In this document: positions 18,343 through 22,956 of the stretch, one piece after another
How positions within the stretch are numbered: the stretch's first letter is position 1
Layout: each line of letters opens with the position of its first letter
Assembly: GCA_902634515.1 (NCBI GenBank)
Contig: CACPKH010000014.1
Span: 1-32,772 of the forward strand
Length of the DNA stretch: 32,772 nucleotides
Direction: 5' to 3'
DNA from: an uncultured Prochlorococcus sp.
GTDB taxonomy: Bacteria; Cyanobacteriota; Cyanobacteriia; PCC-6307; Cyanobiaceae
The notes under the pieces: model-generated
What the model was told of the DNA's origin: nothing
What the model saw: the letters and a program-made list of their open reading frames with translations, nothing else
The model's database searches: none
Program-made: the position numbers and the translations under genes

Positions 18343-18923
18343 AAGTTAACCCCAAACAGCTAGCATTACTTGGAACCAGTGCTGATCCACCAACCAATGG
18401 TCATCGGGCTCTTTTGGAGGGATTAAGCAAGTTATTCCCAAGGGTTATCACCTGGGCAAGCGATAACCCTTTAAAAGTGCATAGTGCTTCTCTATTACAA
18501 AGACAAGAACTATTAGAAATTCTCGTAGAAGATTTGAATGTTCCACATTTAGAAATCAACCAGAGTCTTAGTAGTCCATGGGCTATAAAGACACTGGAGA
18601 AGGCAGAAGAATTATGGCCAAATGCTGAGTTGATTTTAGTTGTAGGCAGTGACTTAACCCATCAGATACCGCGATGGGTTAAGTCAAAAGATATATTAAA
18701 AAAAGCTCGGCTTGGAATTGCACCTAGAGAAGGCTGGCCTGTAAATGAGTTGGATTTGTCAAAGTTAAAAGCACTAGGAGGGGAAATAACTGTATTGCCT
18801 CTTAATATCCCTGAAAGCGCAAGCTCATCCATTAGGAATGAAACTAAGATCACTCATATACCTACGGCAATACTTCCAACTCTTATTAAAGAAAATCTTT
18901 ACGGATTATCAAAACATACATAA
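18339..18923 (+). CDS. nadD: nicotinate-nucleotide adenylyltransferase
   Basis: The protein (194 residues from the GTG at 18339) adenylates nicotinate mononucleotide to deamido-NAD. It has the nucleotidyltransferase motif LLGTSADPPTNGH near the N-terminus and a C-terminal ASSSIRNE motif equivalent to ISSTxIR. The reading frame is open from 18288, but the added residues are not family-like and the GTG overlaps the stop of the preceding GTPase gene in GTGA, which suggests coupling. The stop overlaps the nadE start in TAATG. The neighbouring nadE performs the next step in the pathway. Confidence 0.93.
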   Translation: MKVNPKQLALLGTSADPPTNGHRALLEGLSKLFPRVITWASDNPLKVHSASLLQRQELLEILVEDLNVPHLEINQSLSSPWAIKTLEKAEELWPNAELILVVGSDLTHQIPRWVKSKDILKKARLGIAPREGWPVNELDLSKLKALGGEITVLPLNIPESASSSIRNETKITHIPTAILPTLIKENLYGLSKHT

Positions 18924-20632
18924 TGAAAATTACATTAGGACAGCTTAATCCAGTTATAGGAGACCTAAAAGGTAATAGCGAATTAATCCTTAAGGCATGT
19001 CAAGAAGCTTTTCAGCAAAAAGCAGATCTTTTAATTACTCCAGAACTCTCTTTATGGGGCTACCCCCCAAAAGATCTTCTACTTAACCCTGATCATATAA
19101 AAGAACAATGGCCTATCTTGAACAAAATGGTTAAGAGGGTTGAAAAAGAAACCCCTAATTTAATTCTATTGGTAGGCATTGCCGAATCAATAACTGATTA
19201 CAAGCTCCCATCTCTATTCAACTCAATTGCGCTTGTAGATAAGTCAGGCTGGGAAATAATAGCAAGAAAGCAACTACTCCCAACCTATGATGTTTTTGAC
19301 GAAAAAAGATATTTTCGTGCCGCTGAAAGTACAGGCAAAGTGAGCATTAATATCAATAAAAAGAAGTGGCATATAGGTATAACAATTTGCGAGGACCTTT
19401 GGGTCAAGCAAGAAATCCAAGGCCGTCTTATTGAAGGCCCAGACCCTCTAGATGAATTAGAAAAAAGTCCAATTGATTTACTGTTAAACCTTTCCGCATC
19501 ACCATTTACTCATAAAAAGGAGGCAATCCGTCACAAACTAGCAGCCAGTGCGGCAAGAAGGCTTAGCTGTCCAGTCGCATACGTCAACCAAGTCGGAGGA
19601 AATGACGAATTAATCTTTGATGGGGCGAGCTTTGTTGTCGATAAGAGAGGAGATCTAGCCTTCACTCTCCCAAGATGCCAAGAATCCATTAAGACTTGGG
19701 AAAGCACTACGAACTCAAAAACACTTTCAATCTCTCAACAAGATCCACAAAAAAAGCTTTTCGAAGCATTAGTTCTTGGCGTTAGGGATTACGCAAAGAA
19801 ATGTGGCTTTAAAAGTGCTTTGATCGGCTTAAGTGGAGGGATAGATTCTGCCCTTGTAGCAATAATTGCTGTAGCAGCCTTGGGACACGAAAATGTTTCG
19901 GCAGTATTGATGCCTTCTCCATGGAGTTCTAGTCATTCAATTACGGATGCAACTGACCTTGCGAAGAGACTTTGTATTCATACAGATCTGATTCAAATAG
20001 ACGCATTAATGAAAAGCTATGATTCTTCACTTGAAACAGTTCTAGGAGAATTGCCAACGGGTTTAACTGCGGAGAATCTTCAAGCACGGATTAGGGGAAC
20101 TCTCCTAATGGCAATAGCGAACAAACAAGAACATTTACTTCTTTCAACTGGTAATAAATCGGAACTTGCTGTCGGATACTGTACTCTTTATGGAGATATG
20201 AATGGAGGGCTGGCTGTTATAGGAGATTTATATAAAACAAGTGTATTTAAATTATGTGATTGGATAGATAGCATTGATGCTAAAGAATCCAAAAGATTAT
20301 TTAGATTACCAAAATCAGAACTTATTGGTCCAGCTATTCGGCATAAATCACCAAGTGCTGAACTAAGGCCTGGACAATTAGATAGCGATTCTCTTCCTCA
20401 ATATGAGACTCTTGATCCAATACTCAAAGTTCTAATCGAAAAGAAAGGAAACTTAAATGAGCTTTTAGAGAGAGGATATGATCCCAGGTTAATTAAACAA
20501 ATTCAAATAATGTTAAAGCAATCAGAATTCAAAAGAAGGCAAGCTCCTCCTATGCTTAAAGTCAGCAATCAAGCATTTGGAAGTGGGTGGAGAGTGCCTA
20601 TAGCAGCAAATTATGTCGAGCAAATTCATTAA
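18923..20632 (+). CDS. nadE: glutamine-dependent NAD+ synthase
   Basis: The 569-residue two-domain enzyme makes NAD+ from deamido-NAD using glutamine nitrogen. The N-terminal nitrilase-type glutaminase has the catalytic triad: glutamate in TPELSLWGYPPKD, lysine in ARKQLLPTYDVFDE, cysteine in ITICEDLW. The C-terminal synthetase has the pyrophosphate-binding LSGGIDSALV and the STGNKSELAVGYCTLYGD segment. The start is ATG at 18923, overlapping the nadD stop by one base. It ends the overlapping operon and is convergent with the DUF3326 gene, with 18 bases between. Confidence 0.97.
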   Translation: MKITLGQLNPVIGDLKGNSELILKACQEAFQQKADLLITPELSLWGYPPKDLLLNPDHIKEQWPILNKMVKRVEKETPNLILLVGIAESITDYKLPSLFNSIALVDKSGWEIIARKQLLPTYDVFDEKRYFRAAESTGKVSININKKKWHIGITICEDLWVKQEIQGRLIEGPDPLDELEKSPIDLLLNLSASPFTHKKEAIRHKLAASAARRLSCPVAYVNQVGGNDELIFDGASFVVDKRGDLAFTLPRCQESIKTWESTTNSKTLSISQQDPQKKLFEALVLGVRDYAKKCGFKSALIGLSGGIDSALVAIIAVAALGHENVSAVLMPSPWSSSHSITDATDLAKRLCIHTDLIQIDALMKSYDSSLETVLGELPTGLTAENLQARIRGTLLMAIANKQEHLLLSTGNKSELAVGYCTLYGDMNGGLAVIGDLYKTSVFKLCDWIDSIDAKESKRLFRLPKSELIGPAIRHKSPSAELRPGQLDSDSLPQYETLDPILKVLIEKKGNLNELLERGYDPRLIKQIQIMLKQSEFKRRQAPPMLKVSNQAFGSGWRVPIAANYVEQIH

Positions 20633-20650: not shown

Positions 20651-21753
20651 TTACTCTAGTAGAGATAGTTTTTTCATAGGCCTATCAAATGCCGATATAT
20701 CAATTCCTTCATTTAATCCAAGCAAAATTCCTGCTGCTTCTACATAGTTTTGGACATGAAAAATAGGAGTTGATTGGCTTGCTTTTAAGTTATTTCCCAA
20801 ATCAAGGGCTTCAACCCCAACATTTAAAACATTTTTATTTGAAACAACAATTAGTGGAATATCTTTTTCAATGCAGGACAAAACAGATGCCCCCCCCCCA
20901 ACGCTCCTTTAGGGACTACTACAGCACTCAACTGATCTACACTTAACAACTTAGTATGATTATTTACCTTGCTTTGAATCAATGTATCTATTGGCACCAT
21001 ACTAGGAGCTCTACTTAATCCAACTAGAACAGAAGGCAAAAATGTATGCCCAATCTCTTCCGCAGAAGTAAGAGGATCTAAATCTCTCTGCATCGGCAAT
21101 GGTGACATAGCAGGAGCATGTGCACATGGTATACATAAATGCTTAACCAATAAATGGCTCACAACAGCTTCTGCCCCTGCCAAAGCATCTACACCTCGTC
21201 CTTTGCGATATTCATCTAATTGAGATTTATCAAACTCATCTGGGAATCTTGTTACTATTGCTAATGCAGATGCTCCAGCTTCTTTCAACCTGTCTCCGGC
21301 CCTTAACAAAGAATCAGGTGCTCCCACTTCTCCCCAACTTGAACCACTTGAGCCTCTCTCAAGAGATATTTTCAAGGGAACATCTGTAGTTACGATTGGA
21401 CCAATATTCAAACCCAAAGTTGCACGGCAAGCATTAATTACTTGAATATGTCTTTCCAGTAAATCAGGCTCTATAGCTTTATCAAATAAAACACCTACTT
21501 TTTGTTGTCGAACAGGAGACAACAATATCTTGCCAGAAGTGAAAAGATCAATGCCCAAACCTTCGACATATTGAATGCGCTTATCACTCCAATAAAGTGA
21601 GGCCCCATTCATCACATTCGGGTGGGTAATTAAACACCCACTTGCTGCTGCTAATAATCGAGCAGCAGGGATTGCGTCACCAGCGTATCCTCCAACAGAA
21701 CAACCAATACCGGTTGGAATTATTAATAAAGTTGGGGTAATAGGTTTAGGCAA
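20651..21753 (-). pseudogene. DUF3326 family gene, split by a frameshift at a G10 tract
   Basis: Two overlapping minus-strand frames encode one protein. The N-terminal part (21753 to 20851; TTG start, no ATG available) matches a DUF3326-type protein with LIIPTGIGCSVGGYAGDAIPA and ends in the family segment SAVVVPKGALGGG before running out of frame after 300 residues. The C-terminal part (frame ending at 20651) resumes with ASVLSCIEKDIPLIVVSNKN. The switch lies exactly at ten consecutive G residues (minus strand). One extra G would join them into a protein of about 367 residues, a plausible full length. Function unknown. The cause could be a sequencing error, a mutation, or slippage. It follows a 64-codon gene downstream of atpG. 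Confidence 0.8.
20890..20899. repeat. C10/G10 homopolymer at the DUF3326 frame switch
   Basis: Ten C residues on the plus strand read as ten G on the coding strand. With ten the reading frame breaks; with eleven (or eight) it is continuous. It is the longest G/C homopolymer I noticed in this AT-rich window and is a site prone to slippage and to sequencing error. Confidence 0.95.
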
Positions 21754-22005: not shown

Positions 22006-22956
22006 CTATGAACTTGCACCACCAACAACTTCCAAAATCTCTTGGGTTATAGCAGCTTGTCGAGCTTTGTTATATGTAAGATTCAATGTTCTTGCAAGTT
22101 CCTTTGCATTATCACTAGCATTGTTCATAGCTGTCATTCTACTAGCCAATTCTGAAGCAGCTGCTTCTTGAAGAGCTCTTAAAAGTTGATTTTGCAAATA
22201 TAAAGGCAGAAGAGCATTTAATAATTGATCTGGACTTTGCTCAAAAATAATATCTGAAGGCAACTCAGGCTGCTGATTGGCCGGAGCAGTTCCTTTCTCA
22301 ATAGTTAATCGACTATCTTTTGTTGTAAGTCTAAAGATCTCGTCATCTTCTTCAGCTATGCCCTGAGGGTCTAAAGGTAATAATGTTTGTACAACAGGGT
22401 TACAACTGACTAAACTCACAAACTTAGTATAAATAACTTCTACTCGATCAGTACTTTTTGATAAGAACTCAGCCAAAACCTCACTTGTAACTTTCTCTGC
22501 ATCCTGAGAATTAGGGACTTGTTCCAAATCTTGAAAAGTAGCGCGAATATTATATTGACTAGATCTATTTTGGAAATAAGTAGTCGCCTTACGACCAATT
22601 AAAACTAAGTCTATTTTAAAACCTTGTCTTTTTAATTCCGCATAACGTTGCTCGGTCTTCTTAATAATGTTTGTGTTGTATCCACCGCACAAACCTCTAT
22701 CTCCCGTTACTGCAAGGAGAGTAATATTGTCAACCTCTCTTTTCTGAAGTAAAGGAGCATCAGCTGTCTCAAACTGCATACGACATTGAATATTCTCAAG
22801 TACTCGAGCAAGACGATCTGCGAAAGGTCTACTCCTAAGCACTTGATCCTGAGCTCTACGAACTTTTGCAGCTGCAACAAGTCGCATTGCCTCAGTAATC
22901 TTTCTTGTGTTTTTAACAGAAGTGATTCTGTCTCTGATCTCCTTAAGGTTTGCCAT
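22006..22956 (-). CDS. atpG: ATP synthase F1 subunit gamma
   Basis: The 316-residue protein is the rotor shaft of F1. It has the N-terminal helix [24 protein letters not shown], the [11 protein letters not shown] motif, and the conserved C-terminal helix [17 protein letters not shown] followed by [16 protein letters not shown]. Between about residues 190 and 240 it carries an insert compared with E. coli gamma, as in other phototroph subunits, but without the two cysteines of the plant redox switch. The start is ATG at 22954-22956, 29 bases after the atpA stop. Confidence 0.97.

Follow-up and report, generated by a model that had tools for sequence, protein, structure and literature searches.

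We report that a DUF3326 gene of an uncultured Prochlorococcus sp. is interrupted at a run of ten G residues, and that this break is most probably a technical indel, introduced during amplification or assembly, rather than a genetic switch or a dead gene; we give this explanation roughly three chances in four. It is favored because the gene is unsplit in the relatives, because accD is also broken in the same assembly, and because such frame breaks are in excess in partial assemblies. The stretch of DNA analysed, 32,772 nucleotides in length, is called the window throughout.

Results

The two halves of a DUF3326 gene meet at a ten-G tract

The tract is read as G10 on the minus strand and as C10 on the plus strand, where the sequence is GATG CCCCCCCCCC AACG, and the reading frame switches at this point (Table 1). 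It is the sole G run of at least 8 residues in the 32.8-kb window: the run search returned three hits that represent this one tract, and three hits were reached in 2 of 100 shuffles used as a control. The first frame has ...VVVPKGALGGGHLFCPALKKIFH* as its C-terminal end; from the tract onward, the other frame reads GGGASVLSCIEKD... and terminates at a stop codon at 20651-20653. Positions 2-280 of the PF11805 profile were matched by the 5' frame (E 6e-125, 417 bits, cut-off 25) and positions 276-335 of 337 by the 3' frame (E 2e-8, 33.8 bits, same cut-off). Since the DUF3326 profile continues from the 5' frame into the 3' frame, the two adjacent frames are the halves of one DUF3326 protein, and the split at ten Gs claimed in an earlier note on this DNA is confirmed by the tract, by both frames and by the PF11805 matches. 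Together the halves cover positions 2-335 of the 337 that describe this conserved cyanobacterial protein family. However, whereas in the relatives a single open frame spans the GALGG loop and extends to the C terminus, the window has a split of two extra bases at this conserved loop. As for the start of the gene, TTG is found at 21753 in the window and also in three related loci (L032, L034 and L035), an ATG being apparently missing near the expected start.

Table 1. Features around the split DUF3326 gene (positions in the window)
Feature	Position	Strand	Remark
G10 homopolymer, frame switch	20890..20899	minus	in-frame length by relatives = G8
DUF3326 5' part, 300 aa, TTG start	20851..21753	minus	final ~12 residues are out-of-frame readthrough
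DUF3326 3' part, 82 aa, other frame (P0001)	20651..20899	minus	PF11805 match
nadE (NAD+ synthase)	18923..20632	plus	convergent neighbour, intact
ATP synthase gamma subunit	22006..22956	minus	upstream neighbour, intact

Relatives of the gene point to an in-frame length of eight

About 110 related DUF3326 loci, not all of them distinct, were collected from Prochlorococcus and marine Synechococcus. Translation gave one unbroken frame of about 350-400 codons in every one of them, and no split gene was found among these loci. In all 75 distinct relatives with the motif found, the loop consists of G[A/S]LGG plus one residue, followed nearly always by xVL, and a third glycine after G[A/S]LGG occurs in none of these 75. 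In the genus-mate AG-363-M21 (L034) the loop reads GALGG-A-S-VL, for which the equivalent in the window would be TTG GGG GGG GCA TCT GTT, that is, G8. The G runs at the motif typically comprise 2-5 residues in the 75 distinct relatives, with a maximum of 8, and all are in frame; the length of 8 is found at the loop site in three Synechococcus loci. Because the G[A/S]LGG-x loop is fixed in the relatives, the window tract is, as judged by comparison with the family, two bases too long, its expected length being G8. The earlier note had stated that eleven Gs would restore a single frame, which is correct for eleven and yet incomplete, as eight is also in frame and is the length of the relatives. 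An ancestral G11 is unlikely, the third glycine being found in no relative. The gene is present in 365 of 400 genomes of the family and in 242 of the 251 high-quality ones, and is a near-universal single-copy core gene.

Both halves are conserved

Against a set of 88 distinct relatives, the window was found to retain 103 of the 108 near-invariant positions upstream of the junction and 15 of the 16 downstream of it, which bears out the earlier view that both halves are well preserved. An old pseudogene is ruled out, conserved positions having been retained in both halves. The 3' half shows a little more divergence than expected (mean residual -0.04, taxon SD 0.025, fourth lowest against 60), although intact genes can be as diverged as this. 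Several of the residues that are invariant in the alignment with the relatives lie in the cut-off 3' part, so a truncated product is probably non-functional. A survey of ferredoxins centred on Synechocystis reported DUF3326 genes next to fed3 and DUF650 genes (PMC4284462). We propose no enzymatic function for DUF3326, since no sequence match was found in the PDB and the predicted structure of the intact AG-363-N16 protein (L032, mean pLDDT 80) had no convincing structure match there, the best having an E value of 4.5e-4 and a TM score of 0.22. Phage records contained no relative, and no copy of the tract flank was present in the viral contig collection.

A second break in the same assembly

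The assembly that contains the window amounts to 1.19 Mb in 41 contigs, is 65.7% complete and has near-zero contamination. Six G runs of at least 8 residues occur in the whole of it, three of which are G8 runs in frame inside genes; one G9 run lies outside any evident gene, and another run is the DUF3326 tract itself. In addition, accD is off frame by +1 at a G8 whose in-frame length is 7 (L120, contig C28:7245-7252), and its halves match positions 2-131 and 135-280 of TIGR00515. A real loss of accD in a living cell is implausible, because this gene is normally essential.

Poly-G breaks in partial and finished genomes of the family

Runs of at least ten Gs are common in the family, 298 of 400 genomes having them. 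Of the G-run loci that were inspected first, many were off frame inside core genes. To tell biological from technical causes, we compared two panels of 28 genomes each for their coding G runs of at least 9 residues, one panel consisting of partial multi-contig assemblies and the other of closed or near-closed genomes. An automatic rule classified 29 runs as in frame and 17 as off frame in the partial panel, versus 35 and 5 in the finished panel. After reading of the translations, the same-gene breaks that were kept numbered 15 of 44 in the partial assemblies and 3 of 38 in the finished genomes, where the other 35 coding runs are in frame; several of the 15 off-frame calls rest on reading of translations, and some gene identities were assigned by eye. 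Four loci were dropped at this step, namely L265 (two adjacent genes), L253 (unclear), and L152 and L357 (no clear gene). Fisher's test gave p = 0.0065 for the kept breaks (15 vs 3) and p = 0.013 for the raw ones (17 vs 5), values to be read in the light of panels that differ in clade and GC and of a comparison designed after the first examples, some of which are inside the panels.

Profile continuity across the break was observed for infB, purH, secD, dapB, chlD, accD, a creatininase, ffh, prk, nadB and icd; ndhD, ndhB, menA, cobT and prmC were judged to be broken from their translations or from a profile match on one side of the break. Most breaks are of +1, and the prk break in L329 is of +2 like that of the window (G11 for G9). 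The poly-G breaks recur in unrelated indispensable genes of partial assemblies, and less so in finished genomes; a separate loss of a different indispensable gene in each living cell is implausible. Given that the finished genomes have up to three off-frame runs (rsmI, an infB linker and one unknown), some off-frame runs may be real.

Several loci deserve separate mention. In a closed genome (G032), infB is apparently off frame at a C9 in its proline/glycine-rich N-terminal linker (L367), for which an internal start, a sequencing error and true slippage are the alternatives. The C-terminus of rsmI is apparently off frame at a C10 in another closed genome (L161, G005), as is mutS at a G11 in a nearly complete one (L224, G054). 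In the genus g17, a poly-C run of 10-16 residues followed by an A-rich run occupies the same place immediately upstream of rpoA, with a length that differs from species to species (L180-L183, L186, L188, L190, L192, L233 and L234); it could be a slippery leader or a promoter element.

MutL is not found in the family

A profile search for MutL (PF01119) gave no match in the 25 family genomes sampled, among which is the genome of the window, and found the protein in all 15 of the other cyanobacterial families sampled. MutS is present in the sampled family genomes. The absence of mutL has been described in MED4 and several P. marinus strains (PMC2921402, PMC5101192). The lack of MutL might destabilize G runs in vivo and may be part of the reason why long G runs exist, but it does not explain why coding runs are mostly in frame in finished genomes and less so in partial ones.

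Discussion

In the scenario that we prefer, DUF3326 would have been a single, intact gene in the cell, its G run being in frame (most simply as G8), and two Gs would have been gained in single-cell whole-genome amplification, library PCR, base calling or assembly, at a tract that is possibly slippery in a family without MutL; the reads or the cell would then be expected to show G8. Several of the partial genomes match named Prochlorococcus single-cell assemblies by identical DUF3326 proteins, among them both genus-mates of the window, which correspond to AG-363-N16 and AG-363-M21. From its contig count, its completeness, its near-zero contamination and its neighbours, we infer that the window's assembly is a single-cell genome as well. 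In the single-cell Prochlorococcus and Synechococcus set, MDA or WGA-X amplification was followed by SPAdes assembly, with a benchmark error of 3.0 indels per 100 kb (PMC6122165), a rate that corresponds to about 36 indels in 1.19 Mb; according to that paper, the reads have been deposited. The break resembles such indels: it is a lone homopolymer indel in a gene that is otherwise intact, within a partial, multi-contig and clean assembly, the membership of the window in this class being itself deduced as above. One point against a technical indel is that a gain of two bases takes two steps and is less common than the +1 of most other cases. Among the four options that the earlier note had listed, namely a sequencing error, a fixed mutation, contingency variation and transcriptional slippage, an error of sequencing or assembly is the best supported, by the accD break and by the panel excess, and the part of that proposal that does not stand is the expected length, which would be 8 and not 11.

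A real and recent mutation from G8 to G10 in a MutL-less lineage, that is, a fresh loss of DUF3326 function with no time to decay, is unlikely. It would agree with a mismatch repair in which MutS is present and MutL was not found, with the abundance of long G runs in the family, and with the conservation of both halves. However, the gene is near-universal and every relative fetched has it unsplit, accD is broken in this assembly too, and the finished genomes, which are equally MutL-less, hold their coding G runs mostly in frame.

It is less probable still that the out-of-frame tract is genuine and tolerated, with slippage of the RNA polymerase or of the ribosome yielding some full-length protein. 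The downstream frame is indeed conserved after an out-of-frame homopolymer, as in the frameshifted homopolymer genes rescued by transcriptional slippage, on which there is a review (PMC5009743), and the breaks in infB, secD, ffh, prk and accD, if real, would need such a rescue. On the other hand, rescue would not require the coding runs of finished family genomes to be mostly in frame, as they are, and no distinct relative with the motif is out of frame at the tract site. Moreover, the better documented cases of slippage in bacteria involve A/T runs rather than G runs; the window differs from those genes in having a G rather than an A run, and no shared or selected tract was seen in the relatives. 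The broader proposal, that poly-G runs of core genes are out of frame in wild cells of this MutL-lacking Prochlorococcus/Synechococcus family and are rescued by transcriptional or translational slippage, is a long shot; if true, single-cell genomes would reveal a frame-tolerant decoding unseen in laboratory strains.

Least credible of all is a contingency locus in which replication slippage at the tract turns DUF3326 on and off: the tract lies inside coding sequence, its length and composition fit the poly-G contingency tracts known in other bacteria, and mismatch repair is incomplete, but nearly all relatives have no homopolymer tract at the site, so that the tract does not recur, and the gene belongs to the near-universal core rather than to the surface or restriction genes. 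A recurrent contingency site was rejected, as no relative is split and the longest G run at the motif is 8 and in frame. Contingency had been among the earlier options; comparison of the same locus in related genomes, the check suggested for it, returned intact genes with a mostly non-homopolymer site and leaves phase variation unsupported.

If the break is an artefact, as we think most probable, describing it as a pseudogene or a switch would be wrong, and gene loss should be claimed from frame breaks at G runs in partial picocyanobacterial assemblies only where the reads support those breaks. Looking at such runs in the finished genomes of a family, as was done here, is a simple control that can be applied elsewhere. 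With MutL absent across the family and G runs abundant, there is still sound reason to seek true slippage in read data.
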